Shown here in pieces: positions 18,221 through 28,747 of a stretch of 64,000 nucleotides of DNA. The stretch's first letter is position 1. Each line of letters begins with the position of its first letter. The stretch lies in NCBI RefSeq assembly GCF_003628755.1, contig NZ_CP029256.1, forward strand, positions 329,585 to 393,584, in the 5' to 3' direction. Both the position numbers and the translations under genes were made by a program. Below the pieces are notes generated by a model. The model did not search any database. It was not told the origin of the DNA and saw only the letters and a list, made by a program, of their open reading frames with translations. This DNA comes from Christensenella minuta (lineage in GTDB: Bacteria > Bacillota > Clostridia > Christensenellales > Christensenellaceae).

Positions 18221-19213
18221 ATGAAAAAATTTTCACTGATCGCTGTGGCCCTGTTCATGGCAATCGCACTTGTTGCCTGTTCGGCAGTCACGACAGATTC
18301 ACCGGCAGCTGCTGAACCGTCCGCTCCGGCTGAACAAAGCACGGAAGCTTCCGCAGAGGCGCCGGCGGCGGAGGGGGCGATCAAAATAGGCGTTTCCGTG
18401 GCGGACCAGTCTAACCCGTTCTACATTGAAATACTGGACGGCATGGAATCCGCAGTCCAGGGCGACGACCAGCTGATCGTAATGGACGCCGGGTTCGACG
18501 CGGCAAAGCAGATCACAGACATCGAGGACATGATCCAGCAGGGCGTCAGCGTTATGATGATCGACCCTGTGGACTCGAACGGAATCCAGGCTTCGCTGAA
18601 TGCGTGCAAAGCGGCGGGCATTCCGGTTGTATGCTATAACTCGCCGGTCGACGATACGAGCCTCGTGGCGAGCACGGTTGCAACGGACAACTTCATGGCG
18701 GGCCAGCTGATCGGCGAGGCGCTTGGAAAAGCGCTTGAAGGCAAGGGACAGGTCGTGATGCTGACTTACAACGTGGCCCAGGTTTGCGCGGACAGGGCGA
18801 ACGGCTTCAAGGACGCGCTCTCCAAATATCCCGACATCGAAATCGTTGAAGAGCAGGAAATCCAGCCCGGCGTCGATACGGCAATGCCGGTGATGGAAAA
18901 TATGCTGCAGGCGTATCCGGACCTTACGGGTGTGTTCGCACTCAACGATCCTTCGGCAATCGGCTGCGCGGCGGCCGTTGACAGCGCGGGTAAGCTCGGC
19001 CAGATCAAGATCGTGGGCGTAGACGGTTCCGAAGACGGAATGGCCGCAATCAAGGAAGGCAAGATGTTTGCGTCGGCTTCCCAGGATCCGGTTGAAATCG
19101 GCAAGCAGAGCATCGAGATTGCGTACAAGGTAATCGCGGGTGAAACGGTAGAAGCGGACATCAAGGTCCCGAGCGCGCTGGTTACGGCCGAGACGATGGA
19201 AGCGGGAGAATAA
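18221..19213 (+). CDS. Sugar ABC transporter substrate-binding lipoprotein (RbsB type)
   Basis: 330 residues. Lipoprotein signal MKKFSLIAVALFMAIALVAC, then an Ala/Pro/Glu-rich linker to about residue 50. A type-I periplasmic binding domain follows (KIGVSVADQSNPFYIEILDGME, GVSVMMIDPVDSNGI, VACDN-like VATDNFMAG, FALNDPSAIG, KIVGVDGSEDG). It captures a pentose or similar sugar outside the membrane for the ATPase and permease downstream. GGAGG lies before the ATG. Gene order SBP-ATPase-permease matches ribose-type systems. Confidence 0.95.
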   Translation: MKKFSLIAVALFMAIALVACSAVTTDSPAAAEPSAPAEQSTEASAEAPAAEGAIKIGVSVADQSNPFYIEILDGMESAVQGDDQLIVMDAGFDAAKQITDIEDMIQQGVSVMMIDPVDSNGIQASLNACKAAGIPVVCYNSPVDDTSLVASTVATDNFMAGQLIGEALGKALEGKGQVVMLTYNVAQVCADRANGFKDALSKYPDIEIVEEQEIQPGVDTAMPVMENMLQAYPDLTGVFALNDPSAIGCAAAVDSAGKLGQIKIVGVDGSEDGMAAIKEGKMFASASQDPVEIGKQSIEIAYKVIAGETVEADIKVPSALVTAETMEAGE

Positions 19214-19240
19214 TTCAAATTCCAGGATACTGAAAATATC

Positions 19241-19295
19241 GAGGGTAAAGGGGTGTGCCGCTGTCCGTCCACGGTATGGCGGCACCTTTTCCCTC
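19241..19295 (+). other. Intercistronic stem-loop between binding protein and ATPase genes
   Basis: GAGGGTAAAGGGGTGTGCCG and GGCGGCACCTTTTCCCTC can form a long imperfect stem with a 17-nt loop. No T run follows, so it is more likely an mRNA-stabilising or partial-termination hairpin that keeps binding-protein expression above that of the ATPase, as in many sugar operons. Confidence 0.6.
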
Positions 19296-19359
19296 TATGC
19301 TTTGCAAAACATATGAAGCATATGGAAGATTTCGACTGATTGCTTTATGGAGGGCAGGT

Positions 19360-20880
19360 ATGGAAAATGAATACTATCTGGAAATGTCGGGCATCAGTAA
19401 GACATTTCCGGGCGCTAAGGTGCTTGACAGCATTGAATTCAATGTGAAGGCCGGCGAAGTGCGTGCCCTGATGGGCGAGAACGGCGCGGGAAAATCGACC
19501 TTAATTAAAATATTGGGCGGGATCTATGACATGGACCCCGGACAGGGAACGATCCGGATCAACGGGCAGGAAGCCAAAATCAATACGGTACAGGATGCAC
19601 AGCATTACGGAATTGGTATCATCCACCAGGAAATCAGCCTCGCGGAGAACATGTCGATCGCGGATAACCTCTTTATGGGGAAAGAAATCAAGGGCGGAGC
19701 GCTTTTGAACGACCGGGAAATGGTTCGCAGGTCGCAGGCGGTCCTGGAAGAGATGGGGCTGGGCGTCGACGCACGTACAAAGGTGCGGGACCTGAGCATT
19801 GCGAAACAACAGATGGTGGAGATCAGCAGGGCGCTGCTGTCGAACGCCAGGATCATCGTGATGGACGAACCGACTTCTTCTTTGACAAAAACAGAGATAG
19901 ATCAGCTTTTTTTGCAGATAGATAAACTGAAAAAATCAGGGATTGCCATTATTTATATCTCTCACAGGATGGACGAAATTTTTGAAATAGCGGATTCTAT
20001 TTCCATTTTGCGGGACGGAAAAATGATTGGGACGGATACGGTGGAAAATCTGACGCAGGACAAGGTAATCAGCATGATGGTTGGCCGCGAGCTTTCGGAG
20101 ATTTTCAAACGGGACGGGAAAATAGATGTGGGCGAAGTTTGCCTGGAAGTCAAGCATTATTCCAACAAGAAAATTAACGATATTAATTTTTCCCTGCGGA
20201 AAGGGGAAATCGTCGGGTTTGCCGGCCTTGTAGGCGCGGGACGGACTGAGCTTGCCAGGGCGATCTTTGGGATCGACAAGGTGGATTCCGGGGAGCTTTA
20301 CATAAACGGCGAACTGGTGAATATTCAAAATACACAGGATGCGATCAGGCATGGCATCGGGTATGTTCCTGAAGACAGGAAAACGGAAGGGCTGTTCCTG
20401 ATGCACACAATCAAATACAACACCTCTATCGTCGTGCTGGATAAATTCATCAAGAATGTAGGCGTCAACAAAAAATATGAAAACGAGCTGACCGGAAAGT
20501 ACGCGGACGCCCTCTCTATCAAGATGACGTCTCCGGAACAAAAGGTGCAGTTCCTTTCCGGCGGCAACCAGCAGAAGGTGGTCCTTGGGAAATGGATGGC
20601 TGCCGACCCGGATATTTTTATCCTCGACGAGCCGACGAGGGGCGTCGACGTTGGCGCGAAGGCTGAAATCTACCAGCTGATCTACGGACTTGCCAAGCAG
20701 GGAAAAGCCGTTATGCTGATTTCCTCTGAAATGGAGGAGATCATCAACCTCAGCGACCGGATCGTCGTTATGCACGAAGGTTCGGTGACGGGAGTGCTTG
20801 ACAATAACGAAACATCAAGGGCAAGGCAGGAAGAAATTATGTGGTTTGCTTCGGGAGGGAAAGAAAATGCAAAAAATTAA
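19360..20880 (+). CDS. Sugar ABC transporter ATPase (RbsA/MglA type)
   Basis: 506 residues from the ATG at 19360 (AGGGCAGGT precedes it; the frame runs on upstream without a ribosome site). Two fused nucleotide-binding domains. The first has GENGAGKST, DLSIAKQQMVEISRAL and IIVMDEPTSSL. The second has the typical altered Walker A GLVGAGRTE, LSGGNQQKVVLGKWM and IFILDEPTRGVDVGAK. It powers import through the permease encoded next. It overlaps that gene by 14 bp. Confidence 0.96.
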   Translation: MENEYYLEMSGISKTFPGAKVLDSIEFNVKAGEVRALMGENGAGKSTLIKILGGIYDMDPGQGTIRINGQEAKINTVQDAQHYGIGIIHQEISLAENMSIADNLFMGKEIKGGALLNDREMVRRSQAVLEEMGLGVDARTKVRDLSIAKQQMVEISRALLSNARIIVMDEPTSSLTKTEIDQLFLQIDKLKKSGIAIIYISHRMDEIFEIADSISILRDGKMIGTDTVENLTQDKVISMMVGRELSEIFKRDGKIDVGEVCLEVKHYSNKKINDINFSLRKGEIVGFAGLVGAGRTELARAIFGIDKVDSGELYINGELVNIQNTQDAIRHGIGYVPEDRKTEGLFLMHTIKYNTSIVVLDKFIKNVGVNKKYENELTGKYADALSIKMTSPEQKVQFLSGGNQQKVVLGKWMAADPDIFILDEPTRGVDVGAKAEIYQLIYGLAKQGKAVMLISSEMEEIINLSDRIVVMHEGSVTGVLDNNETSRARQEEIMWFASGGKENAKN

Positions 20881-21850
20881 TGAAAACAAGATTGGAGCCG
20901 GCTCGAACCCGGTCGTCGTCTTTTTCAAAAATAACATGGGCATACTGATTGCGCTGCTTGCGCTTTGCGCGGTTTTGTCTATCGCGACGGACTCGTTTTT
21001 AACGGCAAATAACCTGCTTACCGTACTGCGGCAAATATGCATCAACGCATTCCTTGCGATCGGCATGACCTTTGTGCTGATTATCGGCGGGATTGACTTG
21101 ACCGTGGGCTCGGTGGTCGGGGCGAGCGGCGTTGCGGTGGTTATGCTGATGGAAGGCGGCGTTGAGATCGCTCCGGCGATCATCGTGGCGCTCCTGTTCG
21201 GAGCGGCGATCGGCCTGATAAACGGCACGATCATCGCTTTCACGGGCATGCCGCCTTTCATCGTGACGCTTTCTTTGATGGGATCGCTGCGCGGGCTGTG
21301 TTACCTGATTACGGATGGGCGGTCCGTGGCCTCGAAAAACGAATTGTTTACGGTGATTGGCAACGGTTACCTGTTTGGAATCCCGATCCCGATCTATATC
21401 CTTGTCGTGACCGCGGTCGTGATGTCGATCCTGCTTTACAAGACTAAATTCGGCAGGCGGATGTATGCGGTGGGCGGAAACGAGAATGCGGCGCGTTTTG
21501 CGGGCATCAAAATCAAGGGCCTTACGGTCCGCGTTTATATGATTTCCGGTATCCTTTCAGCGCTTGCGGGCATCGTGCTTGCATCCCGGATGTATTCGGG
21601 CCAGCCGACGGCAGGCAACGGATATGAAGCGGACGCCATCGCTGCGGCGGTGCTGGGCGGTACGAGTTTCAACGGCGGGATCGGGACGATCGGCGGGACG
21701 ATTATCGGCGCGCTGGTGATCGGAATACTCAGCAACGGCCTGAACCTGCTCCATATCTCGTCTTATGTACAGATGATTATCAAGGGACTGGTTATCATCT
21801 TGGCCGTAGGTTTTGATATCCTCAAAAACAGGAAGATGGCAAGACAATGA
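20867..21850 (+). CDS. Sugar ABC transporter permease (RbsC type)
   Basis: 327 residues from the ATG at 20867 inside the end of the ATPase gene (GGGAGGGAAAG is its ribosome site). About nine or ten membrane helices. Family motifs are GMTFVLIIGGIDLTVGSVVG, GLINGTIIAFTGMPPFIVTLSLMGSLRGL, GGNENAARFAGI and LGGTSFNGGIGTIGGTIIGAL. A single permease gene implies a homodimer, unlike the two-permease system at 53783. Its stop overlaps the kinase start (ATGA). Confidence 0.95.
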   Translation: MQKINENKIGAGSNPVVVFFKNNMGILIALLALCAVLSIATDSFLTANNLLTVLRQICINAFLAIGMTFVLIIGGIDLTVGSVVGASGVAVVMLMEGGVEIAPAIIVALLFGAAIGLINGTIIAFTGMPPFIVTLSLMGSLRGLCYLITDGRSVASKNELFTVIGNGYLFGIPIPIYILVVTAVVMSILLYKTKFGRRMYAVGGNENAARFAGIKIKGLTVRVYMISGILSALAGIVLASRMYSGQPTAGNGYEADAIAAAVLGGTSFNGGIGTIGGTIIGALVIGILSNGLNLLHISSYVQMIIKGLVIILAVGFDILKNRKMARQ

Positions 21851-23490
21851 TGGAAACGCCCATGAGCGGAAGAAATTATGTGCTGGGGGCGGATTTTGGC
21901 AGCGATTCGGTGCGCGCGGTGGTAGTGGACCTTGCGGACGGCTCTATGTGCGCGGAAGCCGTATGCACATACCCAAGGTGGGACGATGGTTTGTACCAGA
22001 TGCCAGAGGAAGGGATTTTCCGGCAGCATCCGGCGGATTACCTCGAAGCGCTGGAAACGGTTGCCGCGGAAGCGCTTGGAAAGGCCGGGGACGGAGTGCG
22101 AAGGGCGGTACGGGGAATCGCGGTGGATACCACCGGCTCGACGCCGTGCCCTGTCGACCGGGCGGGAACTCCTCTTGCGCTTACAAGGGGCTTTGAAGAA
22201 GAACCCGGAGCGATGTTTCATCTGTGGAAGGACCGCGCGGCGGCAAGCGAAGCGGGAGAAATCAACCGCGTACTCTCTGACTGGCATGGACTGGATTATA
22301 CCAAGTACCAGGGCGTCTATTCCAGCGAATGGTATTGGGCGAAGATACTGCGCACCAGCCGCTTGTCGGAAAAAATACGGGAGGCCGCATTTAGCTGGGT
22401 CGAGCATTGCGACTGGATTACGGGAGAACTTGCCGGCAATACGGACCCGCTGACGATGTACCGATGCTCGTGTGCCGCCGGGCATAAAGCGCTGTGGCAC
22501 AGCGAGTGGAACGGACTTCCGGATGCGGAGTGCCTTGGATCGCTGGATCCGGCGCTGAAAAAAAACGCCCTTAATTTTGGCCGGAACGTGCGGCCGGCGG
22601 GGACGAAAGTTGGTACGCTGTGCGAAAAATGGGCGAAGAGGCTTGGCCTGCCGGCGGGAGCGGCCGTGGGCGGATGCTCGTTTGACGCGCATGCCGGCGC
22701 GGTGGGAGCGGGGATCTGTGAGCGGGTCCTCGTCGCCAATCTTGGGACCTCCGCCGTCGACATGATGATAGAGCGGGCGGAGCGCCTGCGGGACAGGCGG
22801 ATGACCTACGCCTGCGGGATGGCGGAAGATTCGATCCTTCCCGGGTATATGGGGATTGAAGCGGGGCAGTCTGCCTTTGGCGACGTATACGCATGGCTGA
22901 AACGGTTCCTGATATGGCCAAGCGAGCAGTTTGGGGATGAAAAAACGAGAAGGGAACTGTCGGAAAAGCTGCTCGGAGAATTGACGAGGCAGGCGGAGGC
23001 TCTCGATGCAGGGAGCGCGCTGCCCGCGCTCGACTGGTTCAATGGCAGGCGCTATCCGTATGCGGATGAATTTGCACGCGGAGCGATCGCGGGGCTTTCC
23101 CTTGGAACTGAGCCGCCGCAGGTGTTTCAAAGCCTTGTTTTCGCCACGGCGTTCGGTTGGAAGCGGATTGTTGACAGCCTGAGCCGGGAAGGGCTTGCCA
23201 TTGAAAAAATAATCGCCGTCGGGGGGATTGCGCAGAAATCCCCCTATGTGATGCAGACGATGGCGGATGCGCTGGAACGTCCAATTTCCGTTTCGGCGTC
23301 AGCGCAGGCCTGTGCCCGCGGTGCTGCGGTATTTGCGGCGGTGGCATGCGGGGCATATCCCGATATGTTTACGGCGCAGAAGGCGATTTGTGAAGGATAT
23401 GTGAGCGAATATATCCCCGATGCCGCGCGGAAAGGCAGTTACGCGGAGGCGTTCCGGCGGTATTGCCGTCTTGGGGAGAACGCAGGATGA
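21847..23490 (+). CDS. FGGY-family kinase, ribulokinase-like
   Basis: 547 residues. The N-terminal phosphate loop is LGADFGSDSVRAVVVD; VDTTGSTPCPVD, GVYSSEWYWAKIL, CSCAAGHKALWH, GIEAGQSAFGDVYAW and GGIAQKSPYVMQTMADAL are ribulokinase (AraB-type) features. It phosphorylates a ketopentose, most likely a ribulose, giving the substrate of an epimerase or of transketolase. Last gene of the 15076-23490 operon; no epimerase accompanies it. A second family member at 57127 is clearly a different gene. Sugar stereochemistry cannot be set from sequence. Confidence 0.9.
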   Translation: MMETPMSGRNYVLGADFGSDSVRAVVVDLADGSMCAEAVCTYPRWDDGLYQMPEEGIFRQHPADYLEALETVAAEALGKAGDGVRRAVRGIAVDTTGSTPCPVDRAGTPLALTRGFEEEPGAMFHLWKDRAAASEAGEINRVLSDWHGLDYTKYQGVYSSEWYWAKILRTSRLSEKIREAAFSWVEHCDWITGELAGNTDPLTMYRCSCAAGHKALWHSEWNGLPDAECLGSLDPALKKNALNFGRNVRPAGTKVGTLCEKWAKRLGLPAGAAVGGCSFDAHAGAVGAGICERVLVANLGTSAVDMMIERAERLRDRRMTYACGMAEDSILPGYMGIEAGQSAFGDVYAWLKRFLIWPSEQFGDEKTRRELSEKLLGELTRQAEALDAGSALPALDWFNGRRYPYADEFARGAIAGLSLGTEPPQVFQSLVFATAFGWKRIVDSLSREGLAIEKIIAVGGIAQKSPYVMQTMADALERPISVSASAQACARGAAVFAAVACGAYPDMFTAQKAICEGYVSEYIPDAARKGSYAEAFRRYCRLGENAG

Positions 23491-23634: not shown

Positions 23635-23663
23635 TTGACGGCCCGGCCTGCGGATGGTATAGT
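23635..23663 (+). promoter_or_regulatory. Promoter of the ABC-F leader transcript
   Basis: TTGACG, 17 bp, TATAGT. Predicted start near 23670, followed within a few bases by the AGAGGAGG site of the leader peptide and about 240 nt of leader before the ABC-F gene. Confidence 0.8.
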
Positions 23664-23691
23664 AGCGGTAATAAAAAGAGGAGGCAGTTTG

Positions 23692-23712
23692 ATGCGCAAT
23701 ATTTCTTGCTAA
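23692..23712 (+). CDS. Hexapeptide leader ORF (MRNISC) for ABC-F attenuation
   Basis: ATG CGC AAT ATT TCT TGC TAA, with a strong AGAGGAGG site 7 bp upstream. Its last codons, ATTTCTTGC, are exactly complementary to GCAAGAAAT at 23764-23772. A ribosome stalled by an antibiotic on this ORF would keep that pairing from forming and change the downstream fold. Short upstream ORFs of this type control ABC-F and methyltransferase resistance genes in Firmicutes. Function inferred from position, ribosome site and pairing. Confidence 0.65.
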   Translation: MRNISC

Positions 23713-23819
23713 AGACATTTTATGTTGGGAGAAAGGGATGCTTTGCATTCGTGGTTTCCCGTGCAAGAAATTACGTTTCAGGATTGCCGGCAGAGTAAGA
23801 ATTGTTTGCGGTACCTATG

Positions 23820-23857
23820 ACCTGCAGGAAAATAACGTATTTTCCTGCAGGTTTTTT
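23820..23857 (+). terminator. Leader terminator (attenuator) before the ABC-F gene
   Basis: A perfect 15-bp stem, ACCTGCAGGAAAATA with TATTTTCCTGCAGGT, loop ACG, then six T. It lies inside the leader, about 60 bp before the ABC-F start and downstream of the hexapeptide ORF. It would stop transcription unless an alternative fold or translation-dependent event prevents it. Confidence 0.85.
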
Positions 23858-23915
23858 CGTATTGGTCCGGTCTTTGCTGCAGGAGGGAACGGACGCCCGG
23901 AGGAGGGTGATGGCA

Positions 23916-25394
23916 ATGTCGCAAATCAGCGTGAACGACCTGTCGTTTTGCTACGACGGCAGCTGTGATATGATTTTTGAACATGTTTCCTTTCAGGTCG
24001 ATACGGACTGGAAGCTGGGCTTTACGGGACGAAACGGCTGCGGGAAGACTACTTTTCTGAAGCTGCTTATGGGAAAATATTCATACGGCGGTACGATTTC
24101 GAGCGCCGTAAAGTTTGAGTATTTTCCGTTTGAAAATGCCGACCCATGGGAATTTACAGGGAACGTCGTAAGCGGGATATGCCCGGCTATGGAAGAATGG
24201 CAGATTTCCCGGGAACTGAACCTTCTCGAAGTGCGGCAGGACGTTTTGCGGCGGCCGTTTGGAACGCTGAGCAACGGCGAGCAAACCAAGGTGCTGCTGG
24301 CGGCGTTGTTCCTGAAGGAAAACAGCTTTTTGTTGCTCGACGAGCCGACCAACCACCTCGATGCGCGGGCGCGTGATACGGTGGCCGGGTACCTGCGCCG
24401 GAAAAAAGGATTTATACTCGTGTCGCACGACAGGAATTTCCTGGACCTGTGTGTCGACCATATTTTAGCGATCAACCGGACAAACATTGAATTATTAAAT
24501 GGGAATTTTTCCGCATGGCTCACGCATAAGGAAAAACGGGATGCCTACGAGCTGGAACGGAACAATCAACTGAAAAAGGAGGTCCGCAGGCTGTCCGGGA
24601 CCGCCCGGCAGAAAGCGGAGTGGGCGGAGCAGGCGGAGCGGTCCAAGAAAGGGCAGCGTGTTGCCGGGCTGCGGCCGGACCGGGGGTATATCGGCCGCAA
24701 GGCCGCGAAAATGATGAAGCGGGCAAAGGCGGCGGAGGTGCGTACGGCAAGGGCTGCGGAAGAAAAGGCGAAGCTGCTGAAAAATATAGAAAGGACGGAC
24801 AAGGTGGTTGTGCGGCCGCTTGCGTTTCACGCGCAGCGGCTGGCGGAGCTGAAAGACGTCCGCATCCGGTATGGAGGCAAGGAAATCTGCGGGCCGGTCG
24901 GCTTTTCCGTGGAGCGGGGAGAGAGAATCGCCCTGGTGGGGAAAAACGGCAGCGGAAAATCAAGCGTCCTGAAGCTGATAAGCGGGGAAAAGATCGACCA
25001 TGGCGGAATGCTTTTTACCGCATCGGGACTCGTCGTCTCTTACGTTCCGCAGGACCCGTCCTTCCTGAAGGGTCCGCTTGACGCGTATGCGGAGGGAAGC
25101 GGGATTGACCGGACCTTGTTTCTGACGCTGCTGCGCAAGCTTAACTTTACGCGGGAACAATTTGAAAAGGATATGGCGGATTTCAGCGCCGGACAGAAGA
25201 AAAAGGTCGTGCTTGCAAGGAGCCTCGCCGAACGGGCGCACCTTTATATTTGGGACGAGCCGCTCAATTATATCGATGTACTGTCGCGCATGCAGATCGA
25301 GCGGCTGATCTGCGAATGCACGCCCACCATGCTGTTTGTGGAGCACGACGGCGCATTTGTGCAAAATATTGCGGACAGGTTTGTAAGCCTGTAA
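23916..25394 (+). CDS. ABC-F ribosome-protection protein (Lsa/CplR-like)
   Basis: 492 residues from the ATG at 23916 (GGAGGAGGG at 8 bp; the frame extends upstream through the attenuator, which is not coding). Two ATPase domains without membrane helices: TGRNGCGKTTFLKL, LSNGEQTKVLLAAL, FLLLDEPTNHLDA, and VGKNGSGKSSVLKL, FSAGQKKKVVLARSL, YIWDEPLNYID. The basic helical linker at about 225-310 (RRLSGTARQKAEWAEQAERSK, KAAKMMKRAK) is the arm that enters the ribosomal exit site to displace drugs. The start MSQISVNDLSFCYDG resembles Lsa proteins (lincosamide, pleuromutilin, streptogramin A). The drug range is not predictable here. Confidence 0.88.
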   Translation: MSQISVNDLSFCYDGSCDMIFEHVSFQVDTDWKLGFTGRNGCGKTTFLKLLMGKYSYGGTISSAVKFEYFPFENADPWEFTGNVVSGICPAMEEWQISRELNLLEVRQDVLRRPFGTLSNGEQTKVLLAALFLKENSFLLLDEPTNHLDARARDTVAGYLRRKKGFILVSHDRNFLDLCVDHILAINRTNIELLNGNFSAWLTHKEKRDAYELERNNQLKKEVRRLSGTARQKAEWAEQAERSKKGQRVAGLRPDRGYIGRKAAKMMKRAKAAEVRTARAAEEKAKLLKNIERTDKVVVRPLAFHAQRLAELKDVRIRYGGKEICGPVGFSVERGERIALVGKNGSGKSSVLKLISGEKIDHGGMLFTASGLVVSYVPQDPSFLKGPLDAYAEGSGIDRTLFLTLLRKLNFTREQFEKDMADFSAGQKKKVVLARSLAERAHLYIWDEPLNYIDVLSRMQIERLICECTPTMLFVEHDGAFVQNIADRFVSL

Positions 25395-27074: not shown

Positions 27075-27103
27075 TTGAGTTTCGGGATGCTGTGTGGTAC
27101 AAT
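27075..27103 (+). promoter_or_regulatory. Promoter of the SCIFF peptide gene
   Basis: TTGAGT, 17 bp, TACAAT starting right at the yajC stop. The SCIFF ATG at 27137 has a GAGGGAGG site. Confidence 0.7.
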
Positions 27104-27136
27104 ACACGGGTAAAAGTTTCGAGGGAGGAATTTCTG

Positions 27137-27280
27137 ATGAAGCACATTAAGACGGTAACCAAGAGCAATCTGAAGGATACGTTGCGTACGGGCGGCTGCG
27201 GGGAATGCCAGACGTCATGCCAATCGGCCTGCAAAACGTCGTGCACGCTCGCAAACCAGAAGTGCGAAAAGAAAAACTGA
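27137..27280 (+). CDS. scfA: SCIFF ranthipeptide precursor (six Cys in forty-five)
   Basis: 47 residues from the ATG at 27137, start MKHIKTVTKSNLKDTLRTGG. The C-terminal half has six cysteines in the SCIFF spacing (CGEC, SC, AC, SC, KC). SCIFF is the near-universal clostridial precursor in which a radical-SAM enzyme installs thioether links from Cys to a nearby residue. The maturase gene follows after a terminator, the normal layout giving more precursor than enzyme. The biological role of mature SCIFF is still not settled. Confidence 0.95.
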   Translation: MKHIKTVTKSNLKDTLRTGGCGECQTSCQSACKTSCTLANQKCEKKN

Positions 27281-27298
27281 TTTTTTTAGAGTAATGAG

Positions 27299-27329
27299 GT
27301 GGCGGCATGTGACAATGCCGCCATTTTTT
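27299..27329 (+). terminator. Terminator between SCIFF precursor and maturase genes
   Basis: GGCGGCAT, loop GTGACA-like, ATGCCGCC, then six T. Partial readthrough would explain lower maturase than precursor expression. Confidence 0.85.
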
Positions 27330-27412
27330 CATGTACGGCATCCGGCCGGAGCGCACGTTTTCCAAAGCGTGCGCGGCAGAAAAATGCGAATGCGTTTTAA
27401 GAAGGGGAAATA

Positions 27413-28747
27413 ATGGTTCATTTAATAGAGTTTTGCGGGAAGTATGCGGCGCTGGACGTGGAATCCGGGTCGGTGCACGCGATCGATAAGACCGCAATGA
27501 GCGTGCTTACATTTAAAAATGCGGGCAAGACAAACGAACAGATCGTAAACGACCTGGGGGAGGAAGCGCGCGAGGCGCTGGATGAGATCGAGGAGCTCGA
27601 GCGGCAGGGCCTTTTATATTCGGAATGCGAAATCAGCGGCGAAAACGCGCAGTTTAACACACCTGTGATTAAAGCGCTGTGCCTGCTTGTTGCGCAGGAC
27701 TGCAACCTCCGGTGCTCTTACTGTTTTGCGGACACCGGGGAATACCACGGGGCGCGGGCGCTGATGGATGCGGAGACGGCAAAGGCGGCAATCGATTTTT
27801 TGATCGGGCATTCCGGCGGGCGCAGGAACCTCGAGGTTGATTTTTTCGGCGGCGAGCCGCTGATGAATTTTGATGTTGTGAAGCAGACCGTGGAATACGG
27901 AAGACAGCAGGAAAAGGCGCATGGCAAGAATATTCGCTTTACGCTGACGACAAACGCCTACCATGTGACGGACGAGATGGCGGATTTTATCAACAAAGAG
28001 ATGAAAAACGTAGTCATCAGTATTGACGGGCGAAAAGAGATACACGATAAGATGCGTAAAAACGTCGCCGGAAAAGGCAGCTACGACAGGGTGCTGGAAA
28101 ATGCGCGCAAGATCGTGGACGGGCGCAAAGGTCAGGAATACTATGTGCGCGGTACCTATACGGCGGAAAATCTTGATTTTTCAAACGACGTATGCGCAAT
28201 TGCTGATGCGGGCTTTGACCAGATTTCCGTGGAACCGGTGGTAACGGGCGAGAGCTATGCAATCAGGGCGGAGCATATTCCGCAGCTGAAACATGAATAT
28301 GAGATTCTGGCGCGCGAATACCTGAAGCGGGAAAAGGCGGGACGGGGATTCAATTTTTTCCATTTTATGATCGATCTTAATTCAGGTCCGTGCCTGAACA
28401 AGCGGCTCCGGGGATGCGGGGCGGGAAGCGAATATTTGGCGGTGACGGCCGACGGTAACCTTTATCCCTGCCACCAGTTTGCCGGTATGGAGGATTTTTA
28501 CATGGGCAACGTCCATGATGCGGATGTGGACCAGGGAATCAAAAAGATGTTTATGGATACCCATGTTTTCACCAAAAAAGGATGCAGCGAATGCTGGGCG
28601 AAATATTATTGCTCGGGCGGGTGTGCGGCAAACGCATACCATTCCACCGGGGATATCAGGAAGCCATATGAAATTGGCTGCGAGACGGAAAAAAAGCGGA
28701 TCGAGACCGCGATAGCGATCAAGGTTTTCGAGGAGGACTTACTATGA
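27413..28747 (+). CDS. scfB: SCIFF radical-SAM maturase with SPASM domain
   Basis: 444 residues. An N-terminal peptide-binding region (RRE-like, about 1-80) precedes the radical-SAM motif CNLRCSYC (about 98-105), with FFGGEPLMN following. The C-terminal SPASM domain has auxiliary cluster cysteines (GPCLNKRLRGCGAG, YPCHQF, CSECWAKYYCSGGC). It forms the thioether bonds of SCIFF, as CteB does. The final ATGA overlaps the start of the carbonic anhydrase gene, so the two share a transcript. Confidence 0.96.
   Translation: MVHLIEFCGKYAALDVESGSVHAIDKTAMSVLTFKNAGKTNEQIVNDLGEEAREALDEIEELERQGLLYSECEISGENAQFNTPVIKALCLLVAQDCNLRCSYCFADTGEYHGARALMDAETAKAAIDFLIGHSGGRRNLEVDFFGGEPLMNFDVVKQTVEYGRQQEKAHGKNIRFTLTTNAYHVTDEMADFINKEMKNVVISIDGRKEIHDKMRKNVAGKGSYDRVLENARKIVDGRKGQEYYVRGTYTAENLDFSNDVCAIADAGFDQISVEPVVTGESYAIRAEHIPQLKHEYEILAREYLKREKAGRGFNFFHFMIDLNSGPCLNKRLRGCGAGSEYLAVTADGNLYPCHQFAGMEDFYMGNVHDADVDQGIKKMFMDTHVFTKKGCSECWAKYYCSGGCAANAYHSTGDIRKPYEIGCETEKKRIETAIAIKVFEEDLL

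Follow-up and report, generated by a model that had tools for sequence, protein, structure and literature searches.

A putative ribosome-sensing transcription attenuator upstream of Lsa-like ABC-F genes in Christensenella minuta and other Clostridia and Bacilli

Control by a short upstream open reading frame (uORF) is known for a number of ABC-F genes, among them those encoding VmlR (uORF MIN), CplR (MR[I/M]), VmlR2, LsaA (MAGN), MsrD (MYLIFM) and others; what is said below of individual systems follows the available portions of the cited papers. The vmlR leader of Bacillus subtilis carries its very short uORF within a 5' anti-antiterminator hairpin and has an intrinsic terminator, and vmlR itself is induced by stalling at initiation (PMC9226507). 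The cplR leader of Clostridioides difficile, which belongs to a clostridial ABC-F gene, likewise has its uORF in a 5' hairpin together with a terminator, and cplR is induced by lincomycin and retapamulin (PMC10201436). An upstream ORF has also been predicted for the Lsa gene lsa(A), where the consensus MAGN was found at at least 80% identity to LsaA (PMC10201436), while in the msrD leader a six-residue peptide (MsrDL, MYLIFM) and a terminator precede the ABC-F gene (PMC10314930).

We analysed a window of 64,000 nucleotides, the whole stretch of DNA under study, from the 2.97-Mb genome of a Christensenella strain. Judged from the ORFs of the window, a leader follows a carbohydrate-kinase-like ORF and precedes an ABC-F gene. 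By analogy this leader would work like those of vmlR and cplR, and the overall kind of regulator is already known. The details differ, in that vmlR is an ARE2 gene with another ORF and another sequence (PMC9226507), cplR is an ARE1 gene whose terminator also hides the Shine-Dalgarno site of the gene, and the lsa(A) consensus MAGN is unlike the ORFs described here (both PMC10201436). Unlike the leader described here, MsrDL is a macrolide sensor that undergoes peptide-specific arrest at its stop codon (PMC10314930), and the bmrCD attenuator (bmrB) is a longer ORF that contains the terminator and regulates a drug efflux pump instead of an ABC-F protein. The features of the locus are as follows.

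23635-23663, + strand: promoter-like site TTGACG-17-TATAGT from a motif scan, sigma-70-like, with TG preceding the -10
23677-23684, + strand: Shine-Dalgarno site of the upstream ORF, AGAGGAGG, read from the sequence; the purine-rich stretch is conserved in alignment A1 (below)
23692-23712, + strand: upstream ORF ATGCGCAATATTTCTTGCTAA, encoding MRNISC*, read from the sequence, with homologous ORFs at other loci
23701-23709, + strand: segment 1, ATTTCTTGC, 5' strand of the ORF hairpin (anti-antiterminator), from folds and covariation
23763-23776, + strand: segment 2, GCAAGAAATTACGT, partner of segment 1 or segment 4, from folds and covariation
23819-23853, + strand: intrinsic terminator hairpin of 15 Watson-Crick pairs and one G-U, followed by a T run; terminators also precede homologous genes
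23820-23834, + strand: segment 3, terminator 5' arm, from the sequence and the 3:4 pairing
23835-23848, + strand: segment 4, ACGTATTTTCCTGC, terminator loop plus upper 3' arm, from the sequence and family-wide 2:4 covariation
23899-23907, + strand: Shine-Dalgarno site of the ABC-F gene, GGAGGAGGG, read from the sequence
23910 (or 23916)-25394, + strand: Lsa-like ABC-F ribosome-protection protein gene, from the ORF, family models and structure relatives

A sequence-only reading of this stretch had described a promoter, a Shine-Dalgarno site, a leader ORF, a terminator and an ABC-F gene; all of these parts are present, and the layout recurs at homologous loci. Two promoter-like sites were found in a 4-kb stretch against 1.7 expected, so that a single site is not above chance; the same -35/-10 pair lies 5' of the ORF in the Christensenella leaders L010, L013, L014 and L015. 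Segment 1 constitutes the last nine sense bases of the MRNISC ORF and matches the reverse complement of GCAAGAAAT (23763-23771) base for base, and the 9-bp helix noticed earlier was therefore correct in its bases, with a gap of 53 nt and not the 55 given for it. The terminator stem-loop reads ACCTGCAGGAAAATA-ACG-TATTTTCCTGCAGGT (23820-23852), with the 15 perfect pairs that had been claimed. RNA 23670-23860 (z -5.7) and RNA 23670-23916 (z -4.8) both folded better than any of 200 shuffles, and the ORF helix and the terminator were both present in the minimum-energy folds of the two RNAs, of which the longer had been put forward as a check. At the Rfam gathering score the leader matched no family, the sole match in the window being a tRNA.

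The product of the ABC-F gene scored best against the Lsa model (NCBIfam NF000167, 684.1 bits), which is under the curated cut-off of 750, and we therefore term the gene Lsa-like; against the ribosomal protection ABC-F model NF000355 it scored 451.3 bits, over the curated cut-off of 380. Its closest solved relative was Lsa(A) (7nhk, E 3.5e-127), the next following at 7e-61, and the corresponding protein of C. intestinihominis is 84% identical to the protein of the window. According to the available text of PMC10201436, the protection conferred by Lsa proteins extends to pleuromutilins, lincosamides and streptogramin A, and the protein of the window presumably protects against the same drugs.

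Within the order, 102 of 396 genomes had Lsa-like genes at E 1e-100; at E 1e-110 the figures were 71 of 391 genomes for the class and 36 of 398 for the phylum. The layout recurs before such genes in Clostridia and Bacilli, including the mobile lsa(E). From 191 upstream regions examined, 148 yielded a Shine-Dalgarno site, a short ORF and a helix candidate; 14 of these were reassigned by hand, 21 were excluded by name as doubtful and candidates outside the offset and gap limits were also left out, leaving 124 leaders. A hairpin with a T run was detected 5' of the gene in 111 of the 124 and no terminator in the other 13; removal of redundancy left 88 leaders, of which 87 entered the energy models (L084 absent). 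The ORFs encode MRNISC, MRKISCR, MINFSCK, MFNVSCK, MYNFSC, MISVSC, MIKVSC and other peptides. Conservation of the ORF and the stem among homologous loci, on which the sequence-only reading had staked its proposal, was thus found.

The pairing of the ORF end was analysed in an alignment (A1) of 72 leaders, hand-picked for a clear element from 114 listed, in which eight pairs were predicted in the 1:2 helix. When the helix was taken as 11 pairs, 88% of the cells paired as against 45-63% in slid versions, a figure that is biased because the rows were chosen partly for pairing; the useful part is the changes on both sides, which numbered 42 cells compared with 20 in shuffles, none of 500 shuffles being as high. 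In 90 of 98 leaders the helix begins no more than 12 nt from the start-codon A, so that much of segment 1 would lie under a ribosome positioned on that codon. For vmlR, a toeprint at +16 is given in the part of PMC9226507 available.

Segments 1 and 4 resemble one another (UUUCUUGC), as do segments 2 and 3 (GCAAGAAA), and segment 2 is thus able to pair with segment 1 or segment 4 and not with segment 3. Over the 88 non-redundant leaders, the 2:4 pairing scored 19.26 within loci versus 14.62 across loci (z 12.8, 0/2000 permutations), while the control pairings 2:3 and 1:4 gave z 0.4 and 0.1 in the same leaders. At stricter redundancy limits, with 69, 53 and 35 leaders, z was 10.9, 10.0 and 7.4, relatedness among leaders being only partly removed in these permutation tests. 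The test was not circular, since segment 2 played no part in locating the terminator and the 2:4 pairing was unused in the choice of rows. The loop takes part in the helix, with a mean of 2.72 loop bases paired versus 1.27 when the loop was shuffled (p 6e-11), and with loop shuffling the helix score fell from 19.26 to 16.04. The match to segment 2 in L101 lies in the terminator loop itself, ATTTCTTG. At 73 positions of the 3' arm the 2:4 pair is Watson-Crick where the 3:4 pair is G-U or a mismatch, against 36 at which 2:4 is G-U and 3:4 Watson-Crick, a comparison that leans towards 2:4 because its helix excludes mismatches by construction. The best 2:4 helix was 5 bp or shorter in 17 of the 88 leaders, and in the window 12 of the 14 positions of segment 4 match segment 2, leaving two mismatches. 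Pairing of segment 1 with the terminator 5' arm (1:3) was also considered and rejected, its signal being weak (z 2.0-3.0). At the level of sequence, the hairpin holding the ORF end (1:2) and the antiterminator (2:4) share segment 2, and both covary. Segment 2 appears from this covariation to capture the loop and the 3' arm of the terminator rather than its 5' arm, which seems to be a new point.

These parts fit ribosome-mediated transcription attenuation of the ABC-F gene, as the sequence-only reading had supposed, although its scheme lacked the antiterminator, and we consider it likely that the leader is a ribosome-sensing transcription attenuator of the Lsa-like gene. In the absence of drug, the very short ORF would be translated and cleared, segment 1 would pair with segment 2, and the terminator (3:4) would form and end transcription before the ABC-F gene. 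A peptidyl-transferase inhibitor, most likely a pleuromutilin, a lincosamide or streptogramin A, would hold the ribosome at or near the start codon, where its footprint would hide segment 1 and leave segment 2 free. Free segment 2 would then pair first with the terminator loop, which exits the polymerase ahead of the 3' arm, and would go on to capture the 3' arm as it is synthesised, so that the terminator could not close and the gene would be transcribed. In its widest form the proposal is that toehold-capture attenuators are widespread, with segment 2 nucleating on the loop and taking the 3' arm, with the ORF serving only to park a drug-bound ribosome so that its peptide can shrink to two residues, and with lsa(E) governed in the same manner; our belief in this wider form is evenly balanced by our doubt.

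The energetics of the competing helices during transcription were modelled with a ribosome on the start codon represented by blocking positions -15 to +15, in minimum-energy models that leave out kinetics, the polymerase and pseudoknots. During synthesis of the 3' arm, 2:4 was better than 3:4 by at least 2 kcal/mol in 58 of the 87 leaders with the ribosome in place and in 1 of 87 without it; with segment 2 reversed as a control, 17 of 87 still favoured 2:4. As the loop is transcribed before the arm, segment 2 would have a head start. For the copy in the window, the advantage of 2:4 reached no more than 1.5 kcal/mol, during part of transcription, and 2:4 was worse by 11-13 kcal/mol once the hairpin was complete, whereas in the leader of the sister species (L010) 2:4 reached -7.8. 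The advantage is lost in the window because UUUUCC stands in place of UUUUCU and there is one further mismatch. The terminator 3' arm at 23838-23848 reads TTTTCCTGC, as compared with TTTTCTTGC in the sister species, a substitution that makes the terminator of the window stronger and its 2:4 pairing weaker. On these models the copy in the window is a weak example of the leader family, and it may be tightly shut, weakly inducible or in need of pausing.

A more conventional attenuator can be envisaged, in which covering of segment 1 would allow segment 2 or nearby bases to pair with the terminator 5' arm. This is the textbook arrangement, VmlR being drawn with an anti-antiterminator, an antiterminator and a terminator in the available part of PMC9226507, and in the window GUUUCC-CG-UGCA (about 23753-23766) could, by eye, pair with UGCAGGAAA of the 5' arm. 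The 2:3 pairing, however, is without locus specificity (z 0.4), as is to be expected of segments of the same sense, and we regard this arrangement as improbable. Attenuation could also be mainly translational, the ORF hairpin or the readthrough RNA hiding the ribosome-binding site of the ABC-F gene and the 23819-23853 hairpin being secondary. CplR and VmlR do unite transcriptional and translational layers, according to the available portions of PMC10201436 and PMC9226507, and the bases near the ABC-F ribosome-binding site are partly paired in the fold of the window. A reading of this kind is nevertheless hard to credit given that a hairpin with a T run precedes the gene in 111 of 124 leaders, and that segment 2 matches the terminator hairpin and not the ribosome-binding site of the gene.

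The proposal had been worded as a hexapeptide-controlled attenuator, and the peptide might indeed be the sensor if, as with MsrDL, the drug blocked release or elongation when the ribosome reached the end of MRNISC, in a peptide-specific arrest. The hexapeptide length is that of MsrDL (MYLIFM; PMC10314930, as far as its available text goes), and the Ser-Cys codons are kept in the common frame in 78 of 91 leaders with the element, which common descent could explain. Against this, a truncation count over 127 leaders found the element within the ORF in 80, an ORF that ended earlier in 12 and no motif in 35 (L079 was omitted, as a TTG start gives a full-length ORF). Thus in 12 of the 92 element-bearing leaders the ORF stops before the element (MK*, MI*, MR*, MKL*, MCI*) and the RNA element is retained, as in ATG ATT TAA TTTTCTTGC, ATG AAG TAA TATTTCTTGC and ATG CGC TAG TTTTCCTGC. 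The similar leaders L141 and L146 illustrate this, one encoding MINFSC and the other reading ATG ATT TAA followed by the same TTTTCTTGC, and in L086 and L180 the ORF would read in frame as MR-x-xSC if its third codon were not a stop. Among 83 leaders with an ORF of sufficient length, 68 have TCT as codon 5 and 75 have TGC as codon 6; synonymous codons are few, as nucleotide pairing predicts, so that the sequence of the peptide probably just follows from the pairing of the RNA. Judged from these sequences, the peptide is probably not the sensor, which seems to be a further new point; the 12 leaders that stop before the Ser-Cys codons point to stalling near the start codon, control by the hexapeptide is not supported, and we think peptide-specific arrest unlikely. 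Sensing of cysteine or serine starvation was rejected in view of the short ORFs that lack those codons and of the nature of the gene, which is an ABC-F gene. For ribosome-sensing attenuation, natural nonsense variants of the leader ORF would separate a ribosome at the start codon from the peptide sequence as the signal.

The specificity of the leader was assessed with a covariance model (R1) of the stretch from the ORF to segment 2, which gave one match in the genome containing the window. In a class-wide draw at E 1e-4, one match per genome was found in 33 of 341 genomes, and all 33 lay just 5' of an Lsa-like gene, places being compared by eye. No match away from Lsa-like genes was found at E 1e-4 in the 341 genomes, with strict filters that may lose weak ones, and this absence is the telling part because many of those genomes fed R1. 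The leaders appear to form a dedicated, covarying family that belongs to Lsa-like genes, and this too seems to be a new point. On an Enterococcus faecium plasmid, lsa(E) has the same leader (L298:440-940), with the uORF MYNFSC*, GCAAGAAAGTTAAG and a terminator in which TTTACTTTCTTGC makes up the loop and 3' arm; matching segments and a terminator are also present before a Paenibacillus urinalis plasmid gene. No clear copy was seen by eye in the upstream regions of lsa(B) or of the Priestia, Enterococcus raffinosus and Paraclostridium plasmid genes. The lsa(E) leader in L298 closely resembles the chromosomal leader of L181.

No description of this leader family was found in the literature searched, which concerned the leaders of lsa genes and antiterminators acting through a loop or by strand displacement, and the peptides MYNFSC, MRNISC, MRKISCR and MINFSCK had no match in it. 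The text on Lsa(F) in PMC13339394 is without the terms 'leader', 'attenuat' and 'uORF', and the available parts of PMC8632094 and PMC2965389 say nothing on Lsa. The leader before lsa(E) and the capture of loop and 3' arm are undescribed in this literature, which did not include Dar et al. 2016 and Vimberg et al. 2020, and priority is not established. If the proposal is true, it would explain the silence of many Lsa-like genes of gut Clostridia, and of the mobile lsa(E), until a drug arrives, and capture of the terminator loop and 3' arm by an antiterminator would have a clear example that lends itself to testing.

In L027, L141, L146, L147, L154, L299 and L300 a second small ORF lies between the terminator and the Lsa-like gene. 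These ORFs share a T-H-x-x-L-x-I stretch with inverted repeats nearby, also seen before lsa(B), and the region is possibly a second, translational attenuator. Elsewhere in the window, 5' of the leader (18221-23490), a substrate-binding protein, a two-domain ATPase, a permease and a carbohydrate kinase are encoded in a row, which from their sequences look like a sugar ABC-transporter operon. At 27092-28747 a short Cys-rich ORF (..TGGCGECQTSCQSACKTSC..) is followed by a radical-SAM-like ORF, a pair which we take to resemble a SCIFF-type peptide and its maturase.
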